Position numbers and translations under genes: made by a program
NCBI GenBank assembly: GCA_022361315.1
Contig: JAKSBB010000219.1
Span: 1 to 10,314 of the forward strand
DNA: 10,314 nucleotides
Direction of reading: 5' to 3'
Origin: Desulfobacterales bacterium
GTDB taxonomy: Bacteria > Desulfobacterota > Desulfobacteria > Desulfobacterales > Desulfobacteraceae
Notes under the pieces: model-generated
What the model saw: the letters and a program-made list of their open reading frames with translations, nothing else
Databases searched by the model: none
What the model was told of the DNA's origin: nothing
Shown: positions 1 through 10,314 of the stretch, one piece after another
Layout of the letters: each line of letters starts with the position of its first letter
Position numbering within the stretch: position 1 is the first letter of the stretch

Positions 1-2334
1 AAAAAAGGGTTCAAAAATCCTCTTACGAACGGCCTCCGGCATCCCGGGACCATTGTCCCGGATCATCAGGCAGGCCATGCCCCCCTCACTGAACAGCCGT
101 ATTCTAATCTCTGGGTCTGTACCGTTTATGGAATCTGAAGCCATGGCCTGGGCAGCATTTTTAAACAGATTCAACAGCACCTGACGAATCTTGGACTCTT
201 CGCACAACACCGGTCCCATAGACGACTCAATCTGCTTTTCAATCCGTATGCTTCTGAAATCGTACTGCGTTTTCAACTTAAAATCATTGTTGGCAAGCAC
301 CAGGGCCTTGTCAACGATATCGTCCAGCAGCCAGGGGGTCTTCTCAGCGGTGGATTTCCTGGCAAAGCTCAGCATATTTTCCACGATCTCAGCCGCATGC
401 CGCCCTGCAGTGACAATATGCTGCAGGCTTTTGTATATCCCCCTGTCATCCGCATACCGCCCGACATCAGCCAGCGATACACCGAGACGGCCGGCGGCAT
501 TCACATTGGCAGGTTTGTCAGGCGTCATCCGGCGCTGAACCAATTGGGCGTTGGTCATCATGCCGGCCAGGGGGTTATTGATTTCGTGGGCCATACCGGC
601 GGCCAGGCCGCCGATGGAAAGCATTTTTTCAGATTGGAACAGCAGTTCCCGCGTACGTACCTGCTCAGTGACGTCCCGCACAAGGGTCAGCACCCCCGGT
701 TCCTTTTCCCAGTCAATGGCAGAGACGCTGATTTCCAGGTGGCGGGGTTTGTCATCCCTGTCATTCCCCCTGATGCTGAATGATCTGGGGGCCATTCCAT
801 CCTGCGTCCAGTCCTTGTATATATCTGCCAGCCGCTCCCTGTCATTGATATGGACCAGTGCCATAAATGTCTGCTGCCCGAACCGGTTTTCGTCGATCTC
901 AAACATTCCGATAAACCTGGGATTTGCATAAACGATGACACTCGTTCTGACAATGCAGATCCCGTCAGCGGAGTTCTCTATCAGGCTCCGGTACTGTTGT
1001 TCAGATGCCCTCAATGCATCCTGGGTAAGCCGCCGCTGTTTCAGCTCGGTCTGGTACTTGACATTGGTTCGTGCCAGCTCCCGCCATTGCTTTTCAACGG
1101 TATTGAAGGCACGGGCAAACCGCTGGTAAATGAGAAGGGCCTGGGAAAAAATAAACAGAAAAAATCCCCAGGGGACATAATGACCGGTTCCTATGATCTG
1201 GCGGGTATAAAGGATGTCGTTGATAATGACCACCGCCAGTATGATAAATCCCCCAAGAAACGTCATCCCCCCCTGACGTTTGTACCATACCGCCCGAACT
1301 GCAACCCAGGCCCCGTAAGTGATCACCCCGATGGTAAAGATCTGAAACGGCGGCATGACCCGGGTGAAAAGCGGCAGCGGTGCGGCCAGAACAAAAAGAC
1401 TGAGACCCACCGAAACCGTCCAGATGAAGCGAACCACCCGTTTTGAGGTGTCTTCCGGAAAAAGGGCATAGACATATTGCGCAAAAACAGGCAGTACAAG
1501 AAAAAAGGATATGTATACGATGGACAGTTCTGCTCTGAATCCCAGTGTGGGAAATAATTGGCTCAGAAACCGCTCATCCGTGGCCAGCATCCGTACCGCA
1601 ACAAGCAGGTTGAACAGGGCGAAGTAGAGCAGGGATCGATTTCTTGTCCGGATGGCAAACATCCCCAGGTGATAAACACCCATGATCACGATACAGCCCA
1701 GCAGGATAAAATCCAGAAACAAAGACCACTCCCGCTGCCATTGGATATCGCTTAGTTCCCCCAGGTACACAGGTTCCCAGAAGCCCCCCTGCCAATGATG
1801 GAAATTGGACACGTGGAAAACAATATCAAGCGCGCCGGACTTTGGGCCGACATCGACAACCTGGGGCCGATAGGCCGGTTGGCTGGTTTCCCGGCTTGTG
1901 CCGGGATGCCCTGATGATACCAGCTTTTTGCCGTCTATATAGAGGGTAAAGGCAGATGCCATGTCAAGGAGCTTCAGGCCCAGCCGATGCCGGCCTTCCG
2001 GAAGCTGCACCCTGAGATGGTAGGTGGCATAGCCCTCTCCGGTTGCTTCACCTCCGGCCGTGGGAAATCCGTTCCAGCGGCCGGGTACCCGGATGGCTCC
2101 GGTGGATGGGGGGCCGGGGCTGTTTTGAAGTTCAGCCGGAGGCACCAACTGCCGCCAATAGAACTGCCACTCCCCGTTCAGCCGAATATTACCTTTGTCA
2201 CCAAACGACCAGCTTCGAAGGTCCAGCATCCCCTCTTTGGCAACAGGTGTTGCAACCGCCTGCACACACCCGGCGAAACAGGCCAGGCATAGCAGAACAA
2301 TAGGGATGCATGAAAAAAAGAATCGTTTTGTCAT
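1..2334 (-). CDS. 7TMR-DISM sensor histidine kinase with PAS domain (partial, C-terminus outside window)
   Basis: Membrane sensor kinase that would autophosphorylate a histidine and pass the phosphate to an unseen response regulator. The frame is open for 778 codons from ATG 2334 to the window edge. Residues 1-28 are a signal peptide with a near-lipobox FAGC at 20-23. Residues ~35-190 form the periplasmic jelly-roll sensor typical of 7TMR-DISM kinases (LDLRSWSF, LNGEWQFYW). About residues 200-402 hold a series of hydrophobic segments matching the 7TM module. A linker follows, then a PAS domain at ~441-560. The HisKA H-box AAGMAHEINNPL has phosphoacceptor His583. The HATPase_c domain has its N-box at Asn726 (FKNAAQAM), G1 box DNGPG from Asp760 and F-box RIFEPFF at the edge. 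The G2 box lies beyond the window. The start has a poor Shine-Dalgarno sequence. No cognate regulator lies to its right, so the ligand is unknown. Confidence 0.93.
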   Translation of the reverse strand, partial: MTKRFFFSCIPIVLLCLACFAGCVQAVATPVAKEGMLDLRSWSFGDKGNIRLNGEWQFYWRQLVPPAELQNSPGPPSTGAIRVPGRWNGFPTAGGEATGEGYATYHLRVQLPEGRHRLGLKLLDMASAFTLYIDGKKLVSSGHPGTSRETSQPAYRPQVVDVGPKSGALDIVFHVSNFHHWQGGFWEPVYLGELSDIQWQREWSLFLDFILLGCIVIMGVYHLGMFAIRTRNRSLLYFALFNLLVAVRMLATDERFLSQLFPTLGFRAELSIVYISFFLVLPVFAQYVYALFPEDTSKRVVRFIWTVSVGLSLFVLAAPLPLFTRVMPPFQIFTIGVITYGAWVAVRAVWYKRQGGMTFLGGFIILAVVIINDILYTRQIIGTGHYVPWGFFLFIFSQALLIYQRFARAFNTVEKQWRELARTNVKYQTELKQRRLTQDALRASEQQYRSLIENSADGICIVRTSVIVYANPRFIGMFEIDENRFGQQTFMALVHINDRERLADIYKDWTQDGMAPRSFSIRGNDRDDKPRHLEISVSAIDWEKEPGVLTLVRDVTEQVRTRELLFQSEKMLSIGGLAAGMAHEINNPLAGMMTNAQLVQRRMTPDKPANVNAAGRLGVSLADVGRYADDRGIYKSLQHIVTAGRHAAEIVENMLSFARKSTAEKTPWLLDDIVDKALVLANNDFKLKTQYDFRSIRIEKQIESSMGPVLCEESKIRQVLLNLFKNAAQAMASDSINGTDPEIRIRLFSEGGMACLMIRDNGPGMPEAVRKRIFEPFF

Positions 2335-2677
2335 TTGAGGACTGCCATCATTCAAAATTATAAAACTTTGAGTGATATACATTCAAATACCGGGGAAATC
2401 AATTGGGGAAATCACAGATATGGGACATCCACTCAAAATACTCACATTTCCTTCACCGGTATTCATATCGTTGATCCGTCTACGATAAAAACAGCGGAGA
2501 AGCGATAAAGTATTTGAATCCCCTCACCAAAACGGTTGGATAACAATTGGTTGGATTGATATCCCGGACAGACAGCCCCGCACGGCTTCTATTTCAATGG
2601 TTGATCAGATCACACCCCTTTGGGCTAACATTTCACTAACCATCTGAAAAAACGAAATATTTTATCTATATTTTTTC
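2335..2677. other. Intergenic region between the divergent kinase and DAHP synthase genes
   Basis: I see no convincing gene in this stretch. It holds the kinase promoter and two copies of ggggaaatc (2392-2400 and 2405-2413). It also holds an inverted pair ATTCAAATAC (2381-2390) / GTATTTGAAT (2510-2519), and two copies of ggttggat (2534-2541 and 2549-2556). These could be protein-binding sites, but nothing identifies the protein. Confidence 0.5.
2357..2386 (-). promoter_or_regulatory. Sigma-70-like promoter for the sensor kinase
   Basis: On the minus strand TTGAAT (2386-2381) is followed after 18 bp by a perfect TATAAT (2362-2357). This places transcription start near 2350, about 15 nt before the kinase ATG. 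The -35 box overlaps one half of a 10-bp inverted repeat (see findings). This is sequence inspection only. Confidence 0.55.
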
Positions 2678-2706
2678 TTGACACCCCAAAAGATATATGG
2701 TTTAGC
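2678..2706 (+). promoter_or_regulatory. Probable sigma-70 promoter of the attenuator and DAHP synthase gene
   Basis: A perfect -35 TTGACA lies at 2678-2683. With a 17-bp spacer the -10 would be TTTAGC (2701-2706), a weak match to TATAAT. Transcription would start near 2713, leaving a short 5' end before the leader peptide RBS (AGAGG, 2726-2730). Its position just upstream of the leader ORF is the strongest argument. The exact -10 is uncertain. Confidence 0.5.
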
Positions 2707-2735
2707 TAAGTGGAATTGAACTTTTAGAGGTAATT

Positions 2736-2813
2736 ATGAATTTTTGCAAAGCAGACAGGTTTTATTTTTATTTCTGGTATTACTTTTTTACCGGCCTGTC
2801 TGCGGTGCGCTGA
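2736..2813 (+). CDS. Aromatic amino acid leader peptide (25 aa) of a transcription attenuator
   Basis: A short ORF of 25 codons with a good Shine-Dalgarno sequence (AGAGG, 2726-2730) five bases before ATG. Residues 9-18 read FYFYFWYYFF: five Phe, four Tyr and one Trp in succession, encoded at 2760-2789, with another Phe at residue 3. The stop is TGA 2811-2813. It has no expected function as a protein. It is a ribosome-borne sensor of charged Phe, Tyr and Trp tRNAs, like the pheL, trpL and hisL leaders of enterobacteria. The aromatic codons sit exactly in the loop of the 1:2 RNA hairpin, and the next gene is DAHP synthase, the committed step to all three amino acids. The assignment rests on composition, RBS, RNA architecture and downstream gene together. 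Confidence 0.9.
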   Translation: MNFCKADRFYFYFWYYFFTGLSAVR

Positions 2814-2862
2814 TTTTTTCCGATACCCCAAGCCGCAGGCAGACACTGCCTGCGGCTTTTTT
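2751..2862 (+). promoter_or_regulatory. Four-segment attenuator: pause hairpin, antiterminator, terminator
   Basis: Segment 1 is GCAGACAGG (2751-2759) and segment 2 contains its exact complement CCTGTCTGC (2795-2803). Segment 2 (2796-2806) can instead pair with segment 3 (2832-2842) for 11 bp, including two G-U pairs. Segment 3 (2831-2842) pairs perfectly with segment 4 (2846-2857) to make the terminator. A ribosome stalled in the aromatic run would mask segment 1 and free segment 2 to pair with 3, giving read-through. A ribosome reaching the stop at 2813 would cover segment 2 and allow 3:4 termination. All pairings were read directly; folding energies were not computed. Confidence 0.88.
2830..2862 (+). 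terminator. Intrinsic terminator of the aromatic attenuator
   Basis: A perfect 12-bp stem AGCCGCAGGCAG / CTGCCTGCGGCT (2831-2842 and 2846-2857), extendable by the A2830-T2858 pair, has a three-base loop. It is followed by an uninterrupted T run to 2862. It ends 45 nt before the DAHP synthase start, so it must be bypassed for that gene to be expressed from the upstream promoter. Confidence 0.92.
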
Positions 2863-2907
2863 ATTTAAAGTTTCAGGCAAAGACAACCTGCACAAAAAGG
2901 ATTTGCC

Positions 2908-3951
2908 ATGAAACAGACCTACGATGTAAACGTCAAAGCGTTCAAGCCCCTCACCCCGCCGGCAAAAATGAAAGAGGAACTGCCGGTGCCTGACACAGCC
3001 GCAAACACCGTTATCCAGGGCCGCAAGGATGTTGAGAACATTCTGACCGGCAAAGACAAACGCCTGCTGGTCATTGCCGGCCCCTGCTCTATCCACGATG
3101 TGGATGCCGCCATGGAATATGCCCGCAGAATGAAAGATCTCAGGGAAGAGGTAAAGGATAAAATCAACCTGGTGATGCGGGTCTACTTTGAAAAACCCAG
3201 GACAACAGTGGGCTGGAAGGGGATGATCAATGACCCCTACCTGGACTCCACCTATAATGTGGATGAGGGACTCCGCCGGGCACGGTCTCTCCTGCTGGAC
3301 ATCAACGGCATGGGGCTGCCCACTGCCACCGAAATTCTGGACACCATTACCCCCCAGTACATCGCAGGGTTGTTGACCTGGGTGGCCATCGGTGCAAGAA
3401 CCACGGAATCCCAGACCCACAGGGAAATGGCTTCCGGCCTGTCCATGCCCGTGGGTTTCAAAAACGGTACAGACGGCAGTCTTACGGTGGCGATGAATGC
3501 CATGCAGGCCTCCGGCGCCCCCCAGCATTTCCTGGGTATTGATCCCGAAGGCGTATGCTCAGTGGTGTCCACCACGGGTAACCCCTATGGCCATATCGTT
3601 CTGCGCGGGGGCCCCACCCCGAACTACGACCCGGTATCCGTGGGCAAAGCCCAGGACCGCCTCAGAGAAAAGGAACTCCTTGACGGTATTGTGATTGACT
3701 GCTCCCACGACAACTCCGGCCAGAAGTACAAGGGACAGTCCTTCGTATTCAAAAGCGCCGTGGATCAGCGTCTGGACGGAAACGAGAAAATCATCGGCCT
3801 GATGTTGGAAAGCAACCTGGTGGAGGGCAATCAAAAATGCAAATGCAACGGAGACGCCGGCAGCCTCAAGTACGGTGTTTCCATAACAGATGAGTGCATC
3901 TCATGGGAAACCACCACCAGTCTGATCCGGTGTGCCTATGAACGGATGTAA
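2908..3951 (+). CDS. aroF: 3-deoxy-7-phosphoheptulonate (DAHP) synthase, class I
   Basis: Cytoplasmic enzyme condensing phosphoenolpyruvate and erythrose 4-phosphate to DAHP, the first step of the shikimate pathway (EC 2.5.1.54). The 347-residue length matches the enterobacterial AroF/G/H family (about 350). Visible signatures are AGPCSIHD at 57-64 with metal-ligand Cys60, RVYFEKPRTTVGWKG at 91-105 with substrate-binding Arg91 and Lys96, and IGARTTESQTHRE at 161-173. Others are GFKNGTDG (183-190), LRGG (232-235), DCSHDNS with metal-ligand His267 (264-270), ESNLVEGNQ with Glu301, and SITDEC with Asp328. The start has RBS AAGGA (2897-2901). From memory, THREMASGLSMPVG resembles the Tyr-sensitive AroF form, so the isozyme letter is tentative. 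The leader upstream carries Phe, Tyr and Trp codons, suggesting a general-purpose isozyme controlled by all three. The gene appears monocistronic. Confidence 0.96.
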   Translation: MKQTYDVNVKAFKPLTPPAKMKEELPVPDTAANTVIQGRKDVENILTGKDKRLLVIAGPCSIHDVDAAMEYARRMKDLREEVKDKINLVMRVYFEKPRTTVGWKGMINDPYLDSTYNVDEGLRRARSLLLDINGMGLPTATEILDTITPQYIAGLLTWVAIGARTTESQTHREMASGLSMPVGFKNGTDGSLTVAMNAMQASGAPQHFLGIDPEGVCSVVSTTGNPYGHIVLRGGPTPNYDPVSVGKAQDRLREKELLDGIVIDCSHDNSGQKYKGQSFVFKSAVDQRLDGNEKIIGLMLESNLVEGNQKCKCNGDAGSLKYGVSITDECISWETTTSLIRCAYERM

Positions 3952-3975
3952 CCCGTTCCAGTACCACTAATCTTC

Positions 3976-4006
3976 GCCGGTCCGGTGACCAAACCACCGG
4001 ACCGGC
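3976..4006 (+). terminator. Hairpin after DAHP synthase, possible terminator
   Basis: A perfect 12-bp inverted repeat GCCGGTCCGGTG / CACCGGACCGGC (3976-3987 and 3995-4006) with a 7-nt loop begins 25 nt after the DAHP synthase stop. It lacks a following T run, so it is either a weak or factor-assisted terminator or an mRNA 3'-end stabiliser. Confidence 0.45.
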
Positions 4007-4036
4007 ACCTGCAAGTCTCACATCTGCGCCCCCGCC

Positions 4037-4071
4037 GGTGCAACTGCGATACCCGGTCGCTTTTTTGCACC
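4037..4071. repeat. Inverted repeat GGTGCAA / TTGCACC upstream of the sigma-54 promoter
   Basis: Seven-base arms at 4037-4043 and 4065-4071 enclose an inner 4-bp repeat (GCGA 4046-4049, TCGC 4057-4060) and a T6 run (4061-4066). It lies about 100-130 bp before the sigma-54 promoter, the usual distance for an enhancer-binding protein site. It could equally be a second weak terminator for the DAHP synthase mRNA. Neither reading is proven. Confidence 0.3.
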
Positions 4072-4168
4072 TTCCCAAAAACCACATCCCGGTCAGCACC
4101 ACCACAACCAAAACAATTTTCTCTTTATTTTCAGAACGTTATTTTTTCACAGAGTTTCCAAATGGCCA

Positions 4169-4184
4169 TGGCACACCCCTTGCT
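4169..4184 (+). promoter_or_regulatory. Sigma-54 (RpoN) -24/-12 promoter of the Orp-like operon
   Basis: TGGCAC-ACCCC-TTGCT matches the consensus TGGCAC-N5-TTGCW at every defined position. The GG (4170-4171) and GC (4182-4183) have the obligatory 10-bp spacing. Start would be near 4195, leaving a ~70-nt leader before ATG 4267. Sigma-54 promoters need an AAA+ enhancer-binding activator, and none is encoded here. From memory, the Desulfovibrio vulgaris orp operons are also sigma-54 dependent. Confidence 0.88.
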
Positions 4185-4200
4185 AACCATGTCTTGCGGA

Positions 4201-4233
4201 AACCGGTTCCTCCAGAGACAGATAACCGGTTCC
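4201..4233. repeat. Tandem palindromic repeat AACCGGTTCC x2 in the operon leader
   Basis: AACCGGTTCC occurs at 4201-4210 and again at 4224-4233, 23 bp apart (about two helical turns). Each copy contains the self-complementary AACCGGTT. The pair lies just after the predicted transcription start of the sigma-54 promoter. It could be a dimer-binding operator or, in RNA, a hairpin between the two copies with a 15-nt loop. Confidence 0.5.
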
Positions 4234-4266
4234 CGGAAAGTGATGAATTAAAGGAGAGTAACACCC

Positions 4267-4644
4267 ATGAACAAGGCTGTGTTCGTCAGCAGGGATAGAG
4301 ATCAGTTTTCGGAAATTGAAAAGCTGCTGAATCTGAAAAATATATGTGTTGAATGGACCGGATCCGGAACGGATGTCCTGTCCCTGCTTTCGAATGCCGC
4401 TGATCCGGTTGACCTGGTGGTTCTGGCCGAGGATCTGCCGGATACGCCCCCCAGGGATCTTGTTGAAGCGATCATCTCCCGGCGGGCCTTTACCCATTGT
4501 GTCATCGCGGGCACCATGGAAAAAAAAGCATTCCACGACCACTACGAAGGGTATGGGGTACTCATGCAACTCCCCCCGCATCCGACATTTAAAGATGCCG
4601 CTTCACTGGAAACCCATCTGGATAAACTGGCGGGGTTGAGCTGA
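4267..4644 (+). CDS. Receiver-like (pseudo-receiver) protein, first gene of the Orp-like operon
   Basis: A 125-residue soluble protein with the alternating hydrophobic-strand pattern of a CheY-type receiver: beta1 KAVFVSRDRD (3-12), beta3 VDLVVLAEDLPD (48-59), beta4 THCVIAGTME (76-85) and beta5 GVLMQLPPHP (97-106). The phosphoacceptor position, four residues before the conserved Pro58, is Ala54 instead of Asp. The usual Lys-Pro after beta5 is replaced by Gln-Leu-Pro (Gln101). It therefore probably cannot be phosphorylated in the normal way and may be a docking or regulatory subunit. The RBS AAGGAG (4251-4256) and the sigma-54 promoter precede it. The Fe-S ATPase gene follows after 32 nt, so it is probably co-transcribed. 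The receiver fold is inferred from the pattern and was not tested by search. Confidence 0.85.
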   Translation: MNKAVFVSRDRDQFSEIEKLLNLKNICVEWTGSGTDVLSLLSNAADPVDLVVLAEDLPDTPPRDLVEAIISRRAFTHCVIAGTMEKKAFHDHYEGYGVLMQLPPHPTFKDAASLETHLDKLAGLS

Positions 4645-4676
4645 TGATCATTGATCCGGAAAAGAGGAAATAAAAA

Positions 4677-5558
4677 ATGATTATCAGTATTGCCAGTGGA
4701 AAAGGGGGCACCGGTAAAACCACCGTGGCCACCAATCTGTGCGCGGCACTCGGGGGTAACATCCGGCTGCTGGACTGTGATGTGGAGGAGCCCAATGCCC
4801 ACCTCTTCCTGACACCGGAATTTACCGAAAAAGAAAAGGTCAATGCGCCGGTACCGGAAGTGGATGAATCAAAATGCACCTATTGTAAAAAATGTATGGC
4901 CATCTGCCGGTTCGGGGCCATTGCCGTAATGGGCCGGAAAATAGTTACCTTTCCGGAACTCTGCCACTCCTGCAGCGGCTGCGCACTGATCTGTCCGGAA
5001 GCTGCCGTCACAGAAAAAGACCGCACCATCGGCCATGTGGAAACAGGTCATCCGTCCGGGAACCCGGAAACCGGATTTGTCCGGGGACTTCTGGACATCG
5101 GTCAGGTCATGGCCCCGCCGGTGATCCGGCAGGTCCGGACCTATGAAATTGAAAACGGCTTAACCCTCATTGACGCCCCCCCCGGCACTTCCTGTCCGGT
5201 GATCTCAGCCATGAAAGGAACCGATGCAGTGGTTCTGGTAACAGAACCCACCCCCTTCGGCCTCCATGACCTTACCCTGGCGGTGGAAGCGGTAAGACTG
5301 CTGGGTATTCCCCATGGTCTGGTGATCAACCGGGCCGGAATGGGCAATGATGACGTCAGGAACTATGCGGACCGGGAAAACATTCCCGTGTTGATGGAGA
5401 TCCCCTTTGACCGCAGAATCGCCGCAGCGTACTCCAGAGGAGATCTTCTGGTGGATGCCCTGCCGGAATACAAAGATCAATTCATCTCCCTTTACCAACG
5501 GATAAAGGCCCTTGCCGAAGGTACAGATGAAACTTGTGAAAGGGAGACAGCAGGATGA
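4677..5558 (+). CDS. MinD/ParA-like ATPase with inserted two-cluster ferredoxin domain (first of pair)
   Basis: P-loop ATPase of the Mrp/NBP35/MinD superfamily, 293 residues. The deviant Walker A SGKGGTGKTT at 7-16 has signature Lys9, which acts across the dimer in this family. The strand LLDCDVEEPNAH (31-42) and the switch DAPPG (166-170) complete the nucleotide site. Between them is an 8Fe-8S ferredoxin insert with Cys67, 70, 73, 77 and Cys96, 99, 102, 106 (CX2CX2CX3C twice, only the second followed by Pro). The RBS is AGAGG before ATG 4677. It lies between the pseudo-receiver gene and a second ATPase of the same architecture. Family members pair with COG1433 proteins and are thought to handle metal-sulfur clusters or act in the Desulfovibrio Orange-protein complex. 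The substrate here is unknown. Confidence 0.95.
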   Translation: MIISIASGKGGTGKTTVATNLCAALGGNIRLLDCDVEEPNAHLFLTPEFTEKEKVNAPVPEVDESKCTYCKKCMAICRFGAIAVMGRKIVTFPELCHSCSGCALICPEAAVTEKDRTIGHVETGHPSGNPETGFVRGLLDIGQVMAPPVIRQVRTYEIENGLTLIDAPPGTSCPVISAMKGTDAVVLVTEPTPFGLHDLTLAVEAVRLLGIPHGLVINRAGMGNDDVRNYADRENIPVLMEIPFDRRIAAAYSRGDLLVDALPEYKDQFISLYQRIKALAEGTDETCERETAG

Positions 5559-6448
5559 AGGAACTTGTCATCTTAAGCGGTAAGGGCGGTACAGGTAAAA
5601 CAAGCCTGACTGCGGCATTTGCAGGCCTTGCCCAGAATATGATGCTCTGTGACGCAGACGTGGATGCCGCTGACCTCCATCTGGTAATGGCCCCGGAAAT
5701 CCGGGAAACCCATGATTTTGTCGGGGGGCACGAGGCGGTTATCAATCCGGAAAAATGTACAGCCTGTTGCCAGTGTCTTGAGGTCTGCCGGTTCAACGCC
5801 GTTACCGAAACGGAAAACGGCTGTATCATCGACAATCTGGACTGTGAGGGGTGCGGCGTCTGTGTGGATCTCTGCCCGGAACATGCCATTGATTTCCCCC
5901 GGAAGACCTGCGGCCAGTGGTTTACCTCTACCACCCGTTTCGGCACCATGATCCACGCCCGTTTAGGAATCGCCGAAGAAAACTCAGGGAGACTGGTGGC
6001 CCTCGTGCGGGAAGAGGCCAGAAAAAGAATGACTTCAGAACACCAGGATCTGCTGATCACCGACGGCCCTCCCGGCATCGGATGCCCGGTCATTGCTGCC
6101 ATGGGGCAGGCCACCGCAGTCCTCATTGTGGTGGAACCTACGGTGTCCGGTATCCATGATATGGAACGGGTTGCCGACCTGGCCGCCCATTTTAAACTGC
6201 CGGCCATGGTCTGCATCAACAAATATGACCTGAACCCGGACCAGGCCCAAGCCATAGAAACCATTGTCCGGGAACGGAACCTGGAGCTTGTGGGAACCAT
6301 CCCCTTTGACCCGGCATTTACCCGGGCCATGATCCAGGGGAAATCCCTCATTGAAGCCGGGGAAGATTTACCGGCCGCCCATGCGGTAAAGGCCGTCTGG
6401 GAAAAGGTATCAGCCAGTGCCGCCATGAAAACGGACAGGCTCTGCTGA
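5555..6448 (+). CDS. MinD/ParA-like ATPase with inserted two-cluster ferredoxin domain (second of pair)
   Basis: Paralogue of the preceding gene, 297 residues, overlapping it by 4 bp (ATGA, 5555-5558), so translation is probably coupled and the two proteins made in equal amounts. Walker A SGKGGTGKTS is at 8-17 with signature Lys10. LCDADVDAADLHL (31-43) replaces the Asp-Val-Glu-Glu-Pro-Asn motif of the first protein. The switch is DGPPG at 170-174. Ferredoxin ligands are Cys68, 71, 74, 78 and Cys97, 100, 103, 107. There is an extra Cys72 beside Cys71 and lone Cys90 and Cys119. The two ATPases are clearly divergent, suggesting an obligate heterodimer, which is inference. In Desulfovibrio two such ATPases are part of the Orp complex. 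The C-terminal tail ends in Cys297. Confidence 0.95.
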   Translation: MKELVILSGKGGTGKTSLTAAFAGLAQNMMLCDADVDAADLHLVMAPEIRETHDFVGGHEAVINPEKCTACCQCLEVCRFNAVTETENGCIIDNLDCEGCGVCVDLCPEHAIDFPRKTCGQWFTSTTRFGTMIHARLGIAEENSGRLVALVREEARKRMTSEHQDLLITDGPPGIGCPVIAAMGQATAVLIVVEPTVSGIHDMERVADLAAHFKLPAMVCINKYDLNPDQAQAIETIVRERNLELVGTIPFDPAFTRAMIQGKSLIEAGEDLPAAHAVKAVWEKVSASAAMKTDRLC

Positions 6449-6485
6449 CCTGAGAATAAATAAACCTGTTCAAGGAGAAAATAAA

Positions 6486-6869
6486 ATGCTGAACGGAAGA
6501 ATTGCCGTCCCCTCCAACGGAGACGGCGGATTAAACGGAACCCGCTCCGGCCATTTCGGCCACTGCGATGTGTTCACCTTTGTGGATGTCAAAGACGGAG
6601 AGATTCAAAATGTTTCCACCCTTCCCAACCAGGAGCATGTGCAGGGCGGTTGCATGGTGCCCGTGAACCTGCTGGCCGAAAACAGGGTGAACGCCCTTAT
6701 TGTCGGCGGTATCGGCATGAGACCCCTCATGGGCTTCCGCCAGGTGGGCATTGATGTTTACCACGATGACCAGCGCCCGGAAATCGAGCCGGTGGTCCAG
6801 GACCTCATCCAGGGCAACCTGCCCCAGATCCGAAACGACCAGGTCTGCGGCGGAGGCGGGGGACATTGA
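6486..6869 (+). CDS. NifX/NafY-like dinitrogenase cofactor family protein (COG1433), glycine-rich tail
   Basis: Small soluble protein, 127 residues, of the family (Pfam Nitro_FeMo-Co) that includes NifX, the NifB C-terminal domain and the Orange protein. It has the RNase H-like fold used to bind metal-sulfur clusters. Visible signatures are an N-terminal strand RIAVPSNGDGGL (5-16), SGHFGHCDVF (21-30), a central HVQGGCM with Cys56, and IVGGIGMRPL (72-81). The C-terminal end CGGGGGH (121-127) has Cys121 and His127 as possible metal ligands. RBS AAGGAG (6472-6477). It follows the second ATPase by 37 nt and is followed by a relative, so it is probably in the same transcript. No nitrogenase genes are visible, so a FeMo-cofactor role should not be assumed. 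Confidence 0.92.
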   Translation: MLNGRIAVPSNGDGGLNGTRSGHFGHCDVFTFVDVKDGEIQNVSTLPNQEHVQGGCMVPVNLLAENRVNALIVGGIGMRPLMGFRQVGIDVYHDDQRPEIEPVVQDLIQGNLPQIRNDQVCGGGGGH

Positions 6870-6888
6870 TCCCCGGAGGAAGGATATC

Positions 6889-7248
6889 ATGAAAATTGCC
6901 GTCTCATCAAAGGGTAAAGATCTGGAGGCCCCTGTGGATCCGAGATTCGGACGGGCCGCCTTCATCCTGGTGGTGGATACGGAATCCCTGGATTTTGAAT
7001 GCCTGGACAATGAAGAAAACAAAAATGCGTTTAAAGGCGCCGGTATCCAGGCAGCGGCCGCCATCTGTGATGCGGGTGCCCGGGTACTGCTGACAGGATT
7101 CTGCGGTCCCAATGCATTCAAGGCCCTGGATGCGGCTGATGTCCGGGTGGCCAATGATGTCACGGGAACGATCCGGGAAGCGGTCCTGAATTTTAAATCT
7201 GAAAAATACGAATTCGCCTCGGAGGCCAACACCCAGGGACATTGGTAA
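6889..7248 (+). CDS. Orange-protein/NifX-like small protein (COG1433)
   Basis: A 119-residue member of the same family, closer in length and pattern to the Orange protein of Desulfovibrio. In that genus Orp carries an unusual Mo-Cu-sulfide cluster. It begins MKIAVSSKGKDLEAPVDPRFGR, with the DPRFGRA motif at 17-23. It continues with AAAICDAGARVLLTGFCGPNAFKAL (56-80; Cys60 and Cys72) and ends in GHW. The frame is open further upstream, but ATG 6889 has a strong RBS (GGAGGAAGG, 6875-6883) and starts the conserved domain exactly. It lacks the glycine-rich tail of its neighbour, from which it is separated by 19 nt. It is the last gene of the operon. Cluster type and function are inferred from family only. 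Confidence 0.93.
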   Translation: MKIAVSSKGKDLEAPVDPRFGRAAFILVVDTESLDFECLDNEENKNAFKGAGIQAAAAICDAGARVLLTGFCGPNAFKALDAADVRVANDVTGTIREAVLNFKSEKYEFASEANTQGHW

Positions 7249-7270
7249 CATTTTAAAAACGAATTGCTAT

Positions 7271-7360
7271 TTGGTAAAGCCCTGTGATAGTGGCACCTTT
7301 TTACCCCTATCTTACCCCCGTCTCATTAAAAAAGGTGTCACTTTTACAGGGCTTTACTAG
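7271..7360. repeat. Long, nearly perfect inverted repeat / hairpin (MITE-like or RNA element)
   Basis: Positions 7271-7302 can pair with 7329-7360 as RNA over 32 positions, with a single T-T mismatch (7288/7343) and four G-U pairs, enclosing a 26-nt loop. The outer 12 bp GTAAAGCCCTGT (7274-7285) / ACAGGGCTTTAC (7346-7357) are perfect. TTGCT occurs just outside both ends (7264-7268 and 7362-7366), resembling a 5-bp target duplication. It may be a small mobile-element remnant. It may instead act as a barrier or terminator between the Orp-like operon and the PocR gene, although no T run follows. Confidence 0.75.
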
Positions 7361-7365
7361 TTTGC

Positions 7366-7392
7366 TTGACCGTGTTAAAAAACGATTATCTT
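7366..7392 (+). promoter_or_regulatory. Possible promoter for the PocR-domain gene
   Basis: TTGACC (7366-7371) is followed after only 15 bp by TATCTT (7387-7392). The spacing is short, so this is a weak call. It would start transcription near 7400, just before the RBS AAGGA (7406-7410). Confidence 0.25.
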
Positions 7393-7418
7393 GCCACATG
7401 CAGACAAGGAAACAAGGT

Positions 7419-7922
7419 ATGGAACTGACTGACATCTGCCCCCTGTCCCAATGGGAGGCCCTGGAAAATGATATTTTTGAACGGTTTAACTTTCAGGGGT
7501 CTGTGTTCAACCCCGAAGGAATCAGAATTACCCAGGTAAAAAACTGGAGCAACGATCTTTGCCCGGCCATCAAGGCCACGGAAAAGGGGCAGAGCTATAT
7601 CTGCTCGGTGGCGCATATGAACATGACAGCCATTGCCAAAAATACCCGTGACACGGTGGAAGAGGAGTGTGATGCCGGATTTACCAAGATTGTGGTGCCC
7701 ATCTTTCAGGGAGAAGAGTTTCTCGGGGTGGCCGGTGGCTGCGGCCTGGTAACGGAAGACGGGGAGGCCGACACCTTTGCCGTGACCAAAATTGCGGGGA
7801 TAGATGAGGACCGGGTGGAGGCGCTGGCGGAAAACCTGCCTGTGATTTCTGCCGAAGACCTGTCCGCCGCCCGCGCCTTTATTGAAAAAGAAGTGGACCG
7901 GCTACTTTCTGCAGCCCGTTAA
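7419..7922 (+). CDS. Stand-alone PocR ligand-binding domain protein
   Basis: A 167-residue cytoplasmic protein that is essentially one PocR domain, the sensory module found in the PocR regulator of propanediol/cobalamin genes and in many anaerobe signalling proteins. Family pattern visible: SQWEALENDIFERFNF near 10-25, GSVFNPEGIRIT (27-38), NDLCPAI (45-51), YICSVAHMNM (60-69), then EEECDAGFTKIVVPIFQGEEFLGVAGGCG (81-109). Cys48, 62, 84 and 108 suggest a metal or redox site. There is no DNA-binding or kinase domain, so it may sense and relay by protein contact. The frame is open upstream to 7284 across the inverted repeat. ATG 7419 is preferred because it has RBS AAGGA (7406-7410) and starts just before the domain. 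The methyltransferase gene follows closely. Confidence 0.85.
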   Translation: MELTDICPLSQWEALENDIFERFNFQGSVFNPEGIRITQVKNWSNDLCPAIKATEKGQSYICSVAHMNMTAIAKNTRDTVEEECDAGFTKIVVPIFQGEEFLGVAGGCGLVTEDGEADTFAVTKIAGIDEDRVEALAENLPVISAEDLSAARAFIEKEVDRLLSAAR

Positions 7923-7937
7923 CCAAGGTAGTTTCCC

Positions 7938-9179
7938 ATCAGCAAAAACGCACCCAAGCCCTCGGCCTTTGAAAAACGGGTAAAACGCCGGGTTTCCGGA
8001 CGTACGCATCGATTTTTCGCGGTTTGCCCGCCGGGGCTGAAAAACCTCTGCCTAAAGGAAATTGAAATCTTGCCCGACCGTTTGGATCGGACAGGCTTAC
8101 AGCCCGGGCCGGGAGAAATTTCTGAGATTACCCCTCTGGCCGGTGGCATCGGTTTTGCCACCCGGCTTGAAACTGCCTGTCTGGCCAACCTTTTCTCAGG
8201 TTCCCCCACCCGTATTCTGATGCGGATTGCCGATTTCAAGGCAGACCGTTTTTCCGTTCTTGAACGGCAGACAGCCGGCATCGACTGGGAACTGTTTCTT
8301 CCGGAAGGGCTCAGGGATAAAGACCTTTCCGTCCAGGTTACCACCAGGAAATCACGCTTATACCACACGGATGCGGTGGCCGAACGTATCCGGCCCATCG
8401 TATTAAACCACCTGACCGGACAAACCGGAGGCGCGGTATCCGGCAGAACCCCTCAGCCCCAGATGATTATGGTCCGGGCGGAGAATGACCGGTTTACCCT
8501 TTCCCTGGATATGTCGGGTGCCCCCCTTTACAAACGGGGCATCAAAACCCAGGTGGTACACGCCCCCCTGCGGGAAACCCTGGCCTATGCCGTTTTAAAA
8601 CGACTAAAATTCTCCCGACGGGACATCCTGATGGATCCCATGTGCGGGTCAGGTACCTTTTCCCTGGAAGCGGCAATGATACAGGCCTCAGCCCCTCCGG
8701 GATTGTTCAGGAGGTTTGCCTTTGAAAGCTGGCCCGGTTTCAAAGCGAAAAGCTTTGCCCATGCCGGACGGAAAATTACAGCCCATCTTGCACCACCATC
8801 CGGACCTGCCATCTTTGCTTCGGACCTGAATCCGGCTGCCATAGAAAGCCTTAAAAAAGCCAGATCCGGCCATCCTGTCTTTCAATCCATTCAGGCGGCC
8901 TGCGAAGATTTTTTCGATATCAAGCCCCCGAACGTTCCACAAGGGCAAGGTGTCGTGGTGCTGAATCCCCCCTACGGCAAACGGCTGGGCAAAGATATGG
9001 ATATCAGAAAATTTTACCGGGAAATCAGCCGAAAACTTACCGGAGATTTTAAAGGCTTTCGTGCCGGCATCATATATCCGGAAAAATATCTGACCGGTGA
9101 ACTGGGGCTGAAGCTTACCCCCATGCCTCTTTTTCACGGCGGTCTGGACCTTTTTGCGGGCATCGGGGAGATCCCCTGA
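7938..9179 (+). CDS. THUMP-domain class I RNA methyltransferase (RlmL/YpsC-like), probable 23S rRNA guanine-N2 methyltransferase
   Basis: SAM-dependent methyltransferase of the COG0116 family, which methylates guanine N2 in rRNA or tRNA. Counting from 7938 it has 413 residues. The N-terminal THUMP-type part has FFAVCPPGLKNL and later LAGGIGFATRLETACLANL, followed by RIADFKADRF. The catalytic domain has motif I DPMCGSGTF (233-241), the acidic loop SDLNP (295-299) and motif IV NPPYG (343-347). The first standard start in frame is TTG 8070, which has an AAAGGAA 9 nt before it. However, the conserved CPPGL segment lies upstream of it, and the frame stays open back to a stop at 7929. The only plausible start there is ATC 7938 (Ile-Ser-Lys-Asn), 9 nt after AAGG (7925-7928). 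Either ATC is used, or the gene was ATG and has changed. It lies 15 nt after the PocR gene. Confidence 0.9.
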   Translation: MSKNAPKPSAFEKRVKRRVSGRTHRFFAVCPPGLKNLCLKEIEILPDRLDRTGLQPGPGEISEITPLAGGIGFATRLETACLANLFSGSPTRILMRIADFKADRFSVLERQTAGIDWELFLPEGLRDKDLSVQVTTRKSRLYHTDAVAERIRPIVLNHLTGQTGGAVSGRTPQPQMIMVRAENDRFTLSLDMSGAPLYKRGIKTQVVHAPLRETLAYAVLKRLKFSRRDILMDPMCGSGTFSLEAAMIQASAPPGLFRRFAFESWPGFKAKSFAHAGRKITAHLAPPSGPAIFASDLNPAAIESLKKARSGHPVFQSIQAACEDFFDIKPPNVPQGQGVVVLNPPYGKRLGKDMDIRKFYREISRKLTGDFKGFRAGIIYPEKYLTGELGLKLTPMPLFHGGLDLFAGIGEIP

Positions 9180-9278
9180 ACCGCCGGTCTGAAAGGCTCT
9201 CCATTCCACCATAGAAAATCCCGATCCGATTTTCATTTTCCATTGGAATTATCATTTTGATTTCCCCCCGGCCCTGCC

Positions 9279-9291
9279 TATAGTGTCTGGT
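9279..9291 (+). promoter_or_regulatory. -10 region of a promoter giving a leaderless mRNA
   Basis: TATAGT (9279-9284) follows TTGATT (9257-9262) after 16 bp. Transcription would begin at about 9291-9292, on or next to the ATG of the phosphatase gene, which has no Shine-Dalgarno sequence. This is inference from motif spacing. Confidence 0.4.
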
Positions 9292-10125
9292 ATGGTAAAA
9301 ATCGAGCACATTCTGGATCAGGGTTCCGGTACAACCAACGAAGACCGTTTGATCATCGGGGAAAACATCTTCGGTGTTTTTGACGGCGCCACCAGCCTTG
9401 ACAACAATGCGCCCCGGCCCTCCGGACAAACCGGTGGAAGTCTGGCGGCTGATATCGCCGGAAAGACATTTGCTGCCAACCACTATCCTCTGAATATCCT
9501 CGGGCAATCCGCCAATTCTGCTATCCTCGACAGAATGACCGCCTGCGGTATCGATACCCGCCGGCCGGAACAGGTGTGGAGCACCTCAGCCGCCGTCATT
9601 CGGATTAAAGAGGACCCGATTAAAGGAAACCGGATGGAATGGTTCCAGACCGGAGACTCTCATATCCTCCTTCTTTATTCAAACGGCAGTCACAAGATTC
9701 TGGCCGATCGCAGCGACCATGACTATGAGACCCTGTGCATGATGAAAGAGGCAACGGATAAAACCCTGGACAACCCGGTACTAAAGCGCCAGGTTTTAAA
9801 GGTCAGGGCGGGCATGAACAAACGATACGGGGTATTAAACGGAGATCCTTCTGCCCTCTCGTTTGCAGCCGAAGGTACGGAATCCCTGAATGGGGTAGAG
9901 GCAATCCTGCTGTTCACGGACGGCCTGAACCTGCCGGAACCTGTGCCTGCCCCAAAAAAATCTTTTGATTCACTGGCGAACGAATTCAAACGGTTGGGTC
10001 TGGGCGGTCTCCACAATAAAATCCGGACCCTCGAAAAATCAGACCCCGCACGGGAATTGTACCCCAGATTCAAGTGCCACGACGACATTGCTGCCATTGC
10101 CCTTCACCTGATCCCGCCGGTATAA
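9292..10125 (+). CDS. PP2C-family (PPM) serine/threonine phosphatase-like protein
   Basis: A 277-residue soluble protein with the metal-binding skeleton of PP2C phosphatases, which remove phosphate from Ser/Thr using two Mn/Mg ions. Motifs in order are NEDR (16-19), GVFDGAT (28-34, the DGHGG position changed to DGAT), TGDSHILLL (120-128), LFTDGL (207-212) and CHDDIAAIAL (262-271). Asp31, Asp210 and Asp264/265 are the likely metal ligands. The loss of the His in DGHGG is common in bacterial members, so activity is plausible but unproven. A GTG at 9283 would add three residues. ATG 9292 is preferred as the domain starts there. No signal peptide or membrane segment is seen. No partner kinase is nearby in the same orientation, so the substrate is unknown. 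Confidence 0.85.
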   Translation: MVKIEHILDQGSGTTNEDRLIIGENIFGVFDGATSLDNNAPRPSGQTGGSLAADIAGKTFAANHYPLNILGQSANSAILDRMTACGIDTRRPEQVWSTSAAVIRIKEDPIKGNRMEWFQTGDSHILLLYSNGSHKILADRSDHDYETLCMMKEATDKTLDNPVLKRQVLKVRAGMNKRYGVLNGDPSALSFAAEGTESLNGVEAILLFTDGLNLPEPVPAPKKSFDSLANEFKRLGLGGLHNKIRTLEKSDPARELYPRFKCHDDIAAIALHLIPPV

Positions 10126-10141
10126 GCCGTCCCCCTTGCCG

Positions 10142-10314
10142 TCAGGCCCTCCGGCCGGCGGCCGCATCTTCATAGACAGATTCGATCCGATCAAAGACTT
10201 TTGTCCAGGTATGGGGGCGGGTGCGTTCATCTATTGCCGGGAATTCCGGTGCAGGCCGGTCCATAATATTGCGAATCAGGATCGACAACGCCTCTGAAAG
10301 ACGCTGTTCCAATA
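10142..10314 (-). CDS. C-terminal end of a probable glycosyltransferase (partial)
   Basis: On the minus strand a frame enters from the right edge and ends at TGA (10144-10142), giving 56 visible residues. The amphipathic LSEALSILIRNIMDRP is followed near the end by RTRPHTWTKVFDRIESVYED. This resembles the last helix of GT-B family 4 glycosyltransferases, where a His-Thr/Ser-Trp-x-x-Val/Phe segment precedes the final helix. Only the tail is visible, so no donor, acceptor or catalytic residue can be judged. It is convergent with the phosphatase gene, with 16 nt between their stops and no clear terminator. Confidence 0.6.
   Translation of the reverse strand, partial: LEQRLSEALSILIRNIMDRPAPEFPAIDERTRPHTWTKVFDRIESVYEDAAAGRRA

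Follow-up and report, generated by a model that had tools for sequence, protein, structure and literature searches.

Does the aromatic run of a short leader peptide upstream of a DAHP synthase gene control that gene by attenuation, and which aromatic amino acids does it read? In E. coli, the attenuators pheL, trpL and pheST work by a four-segment logic and by the placement of the leader stop codon. In the DNA analysed here, a stretch of 10,314 nucleotides from a Desulfobacterales bacterium (GenBank assembly GCA_022361315.1, contig JAKSBB010000219.1, positions 1 to 10,314 of the forward strand; referred to as the window), positions 2736-2813 code for the leader peptide MNFCKADRFYFYFWYYFFTGLSAVR within a four-segment attenuator. 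A sequence-only reading had proposed that this leader is a single sensor for Phe, Tyr and Trp. Our analysis indicates that it is most probably a ribosome-mediated attenuator of the classical kind, acting on transcription of DAHP synthase and reading mainly charged tRNA-Phe and tRNA-Tyr, and that it belongs to a family with enzyme-matched codons. The features of the locus are as follows, with the evidence for each in brackets.

2678..2683, + strand: candidate -35 box TTGACA (sequence; recurrence in relatives)
2701-2706, + strand: poor -10 match TTTAGC, 17 nt after the TTGACA box
2726..2730, + strand: AGAGG, ribosome-binding site for the leader ORF (sequence)
2736..2813, + strand: leader ORF of 25 codons, ATG at 2736 and TGA at 2811-2813 (sequence)
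2751..2759, + strand: segment 1, partner 2795-2803 (fold, co-variation, duplex energy)
2760..2789, + strand: control codons FYFYFWYYFF, 5 Phe, 4 Tyr and 1 Trp (sequence; shuffles; comparison)
2774..2794, + strand: inner stem, 2774-2779 with 2789-2794, holding the GG of the Trp codon TGG at 2775-2777 (fold; co-variation)
2795..2806, + strand: segment 2, able to pair with either segment 1 or segment 3 (2832-2842) (pairing tests)
2830..2842, + strand: segment 3, 5' strand of the terminator stem and 3' strand of the antiterminator stem (terminator, co-variation, duplex energy)
2846..2866, + strand: segment 4 and T-rich tail, intrinsic terminator (terminator prediction)
2908..3951, + strand: class Ia 3-deoxy-7-phosphoheptulonate (DAHP) synthase, 347 aa (profile matches)

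The protein encoded at 2908-3951 scored 475 bits against TIGR00034 aroFGH (cut-off 173.2) and 494.9 bits against NF009395, both above cut-off, and its gene starts 49 nt past the terminator stem. Marks of an attenuator were found together at this locus: a ribosome-binding site, a leader ORF with a cluster of product codons, and an intrinsic terminator ahead of a pathway gene. The TTGACA box was absent from the listing of a promoter scan of the window; a TTGAC motif was present 48-88 nt upstream of the leader start in 32/32 loci (the window and 31 relatives), compared with 7% of shuffled stretches, and a motif resembling a ribosome-binding site lay within 20 nt of the leader start in 30/32. When the whole window was searched against Rfam 15, no family matched the attenuator, known leader and T-box families included; the sole match at E <=1 was distant from the leader and under its gathering score. 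Elsewhere in the window are a large PAS-domain sensor histidine kinase truncated at the window edge (1-2382, minus strand), two neighbouring MinD/ParA-like ATPases with ferredoxin-type domains (4677-6448; matches under the model cut-offs) and, 3' of these, a protein fitting part of the MrpORP iron-sulfur carrier model (6486-6869; under cut-off).

The leader with its ribosome-binding site and ten-residue FYFYFWYYFF run was present as first described. In 4000 dinucleotide shuffles of positions 2640-2907, F/Y/W runs within ORFs reached 6 at most, against the 10 observed, and a run of ten occurred in 0/4000; shuffling the leader alone, again 4000 times, also gave 6 at most. The leader region folded with z = -7.4 relative to 200 shuffles. 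Exact complementarity of segments 1 and 2 had been claimed, and it was found between 2751-2759 and 2795-2803 (-15.6 kcal/mol). The claimed 2:3 pairing with two G-U pairs was likewise found, as 11 pairs between 2796-2806 and 2832-2842; the duplex of 2794-2805 with 2833-2844 had an energy of -18.9. The terminator, described as a perfect 12-bp stem with a T run, kept its stem and its tail (TTTTATTT, 2859-2866), but the stem is 13 bp long (2830-2842 with 2846-2858, loop ACA, -26.0 kcal/mol). Similarly, the aromatic codons do lie within the 1:2 loop, but this loop is not free, as the inner stem includes the Trp codon. When the upstream part was masked, static folding still preferred 3:4 (-32.7) over 2:3 (-22.2). 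Since masking alone leaves the terminator favoured, the switch must be kinetic, set by the order of transcription.

We then compared the locus with its relatives, as the sequence-only reading had suggested. Eighty loci were fetched with the DAHP synthase protein, and upstream DNA was examined in 32 loci titled Desulfobacterota or Deltaproteobacteria (L001-L032) and in 19 of 47 others; L033, which came without upstream DNA, was left out. With five or more aromatic residues in a stretch of 10 as the definition of a leader, an aromatic leader ORF was found upstream of DAHP synthase in 31/32 Desulfobacterota loci, being missing only at L023, and in 0/19 of the examined loci outside Desulfobacterota. 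Close relatives mostly encoded MNFCxTDRFYFYF(W/R/G/T)YYFYTGLPVLR or something near it. For the C-terminal GLPVLR it is the RNA that is conserved and not the peptide: in L003 and L017 the frame is shifted there, and in L004 the stop codon comes directly ahead of segment 2. At L003 (positions 2810-2943; Desulfospira joergensenii), the leader is kept and the terminator looks damaged, with a mismatch and without a T run.

On an alignment of 32 sequences, the 1:2, inner and 3:4 stems had 86.3% of cells paired, 13 pairs changed in both partners and 42 cells of that kind. No shuffle out of 500 came up to any of these three values or to the covariation score, and 3/500 reached the number of pair types. 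For 2:3, 75% of cells were paired; 78/500 shuffles reached this pairing and 9/500 the covariation score. This helix is weak by the alignment measure because its columns vary little. The compensatory changes expected in segments 1-4 were therefore clear for 1:2 and 3:4 and less clear for 2:3. These results show the mutually exclusive 1:2, 2:3 and 3:4 helices of an attenuator, with 2:3 the weaker on alignment.

A covariance model was built from the 32 aligned sequences and used with a threshold of E <=0.01. It matched 155/194 genomes of the window's order and 121/297 genomes of the phylum, many of them weakly, and in a control 7/150 Pseudomonadota genomes at E 0.002-0.01 (best 0.0024). Of the 150 matches listed in the window's order, 149 were fetched; the 150th is the element of L021. 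Among these 149 loci, the gene behind the element was DAHP synthase Ia in 56 (by blastp against the window protein) and was counted as ADTH synthase in 73. ADTH synthase is the first enzyme of an alternative route to dehydroquinate and is non-homologous to DAHP synthase. It was assigned by NCBIfam on one protein (L087) and elsewhere by a DHG motif that 70 loci have in common with L087; its 73 loci, with 72 different leaders, include the uncertain L105 and L222 (no downstream gene in the stretch) and L118 (partial frame). Further genes were chorismate mutase-prephenate dehydratase (5), AroE (2), AroC (2), AroK (2), AroA (1), DAHP synthase Ib (2), TrpE (2) and phenylacetate-CoA ligase (1), and all 17 of these aromatic genes outside Ia and ADTH synthase were checked. 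The ligase gene (L213) stands behind a Phe-rich leader and perhaps serves phenylacetate-to-Phe salvage. In total, an aromatic-metabolism gene was seen behind the element at 143/149 loci, and none was seen at L143, L214 and L225; the gene was taken as the longest ORF with its start no more than 900 nt away, and a further gene may therefore lie in between (L188 and L228 have gaps of 604 and 654 nt).

Phylum-wide, 27 of the best matches (L300-L326) were examined; under the same rule each had an F/Y leader, and their genes, judged by eye, were the same enzymes plus a few others. L319 and L324 have the Phe-rich leaders FFFFYFFSF and FFYFFSF, with a next protein whose N-terminus resembles an ABC transporter substrate-binding protein. 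At L301 and L305, F/Y leaders are followed 295-307 nt on by what is, by eye, an NDP-forming acyl-CoA synthetase.

The DAHP synthase Ia and ADTH synthase leaders together gave a set of 155, 83 and 72 respectively. The 83 include same-genome doubles with another start codon (L097/L029, L167/L027, L171/L026 and L086/L031), and 82 of them are on the tree used below. A swap test was run on 125 of the 155, with 30 dropped because their segments were not located. A segment's own partner beat the mean of other species' partners in 110/125 leaders for 1:2 and in 95/125 for 2:3. Stop-codon placement was examined in 129 leaders (26/155 dropped), and in 103/129 the best ten-mer of segment 2 fell inside the stretch that a ribosome at the stop codon is assumed to cover. 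The footprint sizes used here are E. coli values. A ribosome-mediated attenuator at this locus, as had been proposed, is strongly supported: the element is conserved, its helices co-vary, and both the position of the stop codon and the neighbouring gene fit.

The proposed mechanism runs as follows. When Phe and Tyr are ample, the ribosome would reach the UGA at 2811 and cover segment 2, 3:4 would form, and transcription would end near 2866. If either amino acid is scarce, the ribosome would stall on 2760-2789 and separate segment 1 from segment 2; 2:3 would then replace the terminator and DAHP synthase would be transcribed. With the E. coli footprint, a ribosome stalled early in the run would cover segment 1 and one on codons 14-16 would sit between segments 1 and 2, so that all the control codons could act; on the last two codons of the run the ribosome would start to cover segment 2.

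We next asked which amino acids are read. Phe and Tyr codons were present in 155/155 leaders, and Trp codons in 81/155. The reading of Phe and Tyr by the predicted attenuator is therefore well supported. A Tyr codon need not imply a response to Tyr, as the AroR leader of C. glutamicum (Phe-Tyr-Phe) responds to Phe and not to Tyr according to the available part of PMC11802643. The first proposal, one sensor for all three amino acids, held for Phe and Tyr but not for Trp as an equal third input, which was absent from 74/155 leaders and labile. A true three-input sensor, stalling alike for Phe, Tyr or Trp and with the Trp codon under selection for sensing, would be consistent with the Trp codon of the window being kept in its two nearest relatives (L001, L002) and with TGG making up 83 of the 132 NGG codons in the leader core. 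However, where Trp was lost the codon is often CGG, AGG or GGG, which make up the other 49, a replacement that fits the pairing of the GG in the inner stem. The W/R/G/T exchange at the Trp site keeps this GG, and L018, which has ACG instead, swaps it with compensation. Mapped onto a tree of 82 DAHP synthases, gain and loss of Trp required at least 24 changes, compared with 22-34 (mean 27.3) in 100 label shuffles, so that its presence is distributed nearly at random. Trp is also only 1 of the 10 control codons in the window leader, with Phe 5 and Tyr 4, and modelling ties sensitivity to the fraction of control codons, dropping with it (PMC1183508, available part).

An explanation of Trp loss by ownership of a stand-alone DAHP synthase Ib was tried and rejected: Trp was present in 14/27 leaders with this isozyme and in 20/32 without it (Fisher p = 0.44), leaving loss unlinked overall to ownership, which likewise does not favour three-input sensing. 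By class, owned versus not, the trends were opposite (4/12 versus 18/25 for ADTH synthase leaders, 10/15 versus 2/7 for DAHP synthase Ia).

Pseudomonadota were meant as a clean negative control for the covariance model and were rejected as such, since real leaders were found. The weak match L298, one of the seven, has the leader FYFWYYF ahead of DAHP synthase, and mixed F/Y leaders occurred at 14/37 usable Pseudomonadota DAHP synthase loci (5/28 drawn phylum-wide and 11/11 from the order of L298, two being shared). The leader trait is therefore not confined to Desulfobacterota. Those inspected have, by eye, a similar segment layout. Two further Pseudomonadota DAHP synthase genes, among L327-L365, have the Trp-rich leaders WWWRIPEPCGSF and MALSWWCWFGCQ. 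All 14 mixed leaders, 11 of them from one order, contain Trp. Codons for all three amino acids were thus kept across relatives only in this small Pseudomonadota set (14/14) and not in Desulfobacterota. TGG is the commonest NGG codon in the core of the 155 leaders, and all 14 mixed leaders of Pseudomonadota keep Trp, so three-amino-acid leaders may be real in the latter. For the window, equal sensing of all three seems unlikely, and we read the attenuator as a putative Phe/Tyr sensor with a weak, optional Trp input.

The leader codons were then compared with the enzymes behind them under one criterion for 30 trpE loci, 18 loci of DAHP synthase Ib-prephenate dehydratase fusions (including L230), 28 usable of 30 stand-alone Ib loci and 31 usable Ia loci. 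Leaders were found at 15/30 trpE, 9/18 fusion, 16/28 stand-alone Ib and 30/31 Ia loci, with null rates of 0.2 to 2.4%. The trpE leaders encoded W48 Y9 F17, with WW or longer in 14/15 and one not of Trp type; the fusion leaders F61 Y1 W1; the stand-alone Ib leaders F27 Y20 W49, with at least 3 Trp in 12/16 and 4 mixed; and the Ia leaders F110 Y128 W13. That Trp-rich leaders in the window's order precede other genes, trpE and stand-alone Ib, also argues against an equal Trp input at the window's element. A looser rule (WW or WCW) gave trpE leaders at 22/30 loci, and a Phe-alone rule gave fusion leaders at 13/18 (F80 Y4 W2), L373 being unlike the rest.

The fusions are about 625 aa long (L230 at G001:C3:814400-818000, L231, L235, L245, L247, L255 and L366-L377; L375-L377 were called from frame length alone, 628-636 aa), and many of their genes have Phe-only leaders with the pattern FGRFFF..FRSVHPV. 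In Desulfospira joergensenii (G001), an Ia leader FYFWYYFY occurs together with a Phe leader ahead of the fusion (L230), mixed leaders ahead of chorismate mutase-prephenate dehydratase (L202) and Ib (L399), and a weak WW candidate ahead of trpE (L289). Because this Ib leader is mixed, Trp cannot be assigned to Ib leaders in every case. Stretches near putative class II DAHP synthase starts in three genomes (L383-L385) had no aromatic leader. We consider it reasonably likely that Desulfobacterota divide aromatic entry among DAHP synthase isozymes and ADTH synthase, each with a ribosome-read leader naming its amino acids (Phe and Tyr with optional Trp for Ia and ADTH synthase, Phe for the fusion, Trp for stand-alone Ib and trpE), so that the isozyme logic of TyrR, TrpR and allostery in E. 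coli would be written in leader codons.

The match of codon identity to enzyme product also bears on a TnaC-like arrest, in which the aromatic nascent peptide would stall in the exit tunnel on a free amino acid. The peptide is aromatic-rich, and its MNFCxTDRFYFYF core is conserved in much of the close group. However, F and Y drift in the peptide across the window's order, the C-terminal part is missing or frame-shifted in some relatives, and codon identity tracks the enzyme product, which makes such an arrest very improbable.

The leaders prefer TTT and TAT, and their core is A/T-rich. Of 767 A residues in the leaders, 690 were at codon position 2, 63 at position 1 and 14 at position 3, and the two other frames read 26-28% F/Y/W; the reading frame therefore appears selected. 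That a U-rich loop reads as Phe and Tyr by accident beside ordinary terminator hairpins, which the A/T-rich core would suit, is hardly credible given this bias toward position 2, the non-aromatic other frames and the different in-frame codons ahead of the fusions and trpE. A ribosome-read Phe/Tyr attenuator remains the preferred reading.

With these results, attenuation by a leader peptide at the entry to the shikimate pathway would reach into a large group of anaerobes, with one regulatory element linking two non-homologous entry enzymes. The leader codons form a readable code that suggests the end product served by each isozyme. They also offer a natural test of a ribosome sensor integrating two or three amino acids, because the leaders of relatives can differ in one codon only, with W, R or G at the same site.

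A literature search, mostly without subscription papers, gave no report of a Desulfobacterota leader family. As far as this search shows, what is new is the Desulfobacterota family, the fact that two non-homologous entry enzymes share it, and the agreement between leader codons and isozymes. A Phe/Tyr leader that attenuates a DAHP synthase gene is already known from C. glutamicum, and such attenuation is predicted in Acholeplasma. The aroR leader of C. glutamicum lies ahead of aroF and attenuates the DAHP synthase operon (Neshat et al. 2014, via the available part of PMC11802643). Likened by description only, it resembles the window in its Phe-Tyr-Phe leader peptide and in acting on DAHP synthase; it differs in having three control codons, in responding to Phe only and not to Tyr, and in its phylum. 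In Acholeplasma, uORFC-13-1 upstream of aroF is similarly a Phe-codon uORF directly ahead of a terminator and a DAHP synthase gene (PMC8632094). Unlike the window leader, it is a prediction, is defined by at least one Phe codon and not by a mixed run, and is known from Acholeplasma and unknown environmental sequences only (PMC8632094).

The pheL, trpL and pheST attenuators, named for E. coli in the available part of PMC11802643, differ from the window in reading one amino acid each and in not standing on DAHP synthase genes. The aroF and aroH RNA motifs of Shewanella are also predicted regulatory RNAs ahead of DAHP synthase genes; they are computational candidates, and the available part of PMC2659441 describes no mixed aromatic leader for them. 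Finally, the E. coli isozymes AroF, AroG and AroH are, like the Desulfobacterota enzymes, separately controlled by different aromatic amino acids (PMC5343134, available part). In E. coli this control lies with the protein repressors TyrR and TrpR (same source), whereas in Desulfobacterota it would lie in the codons of the leaders.
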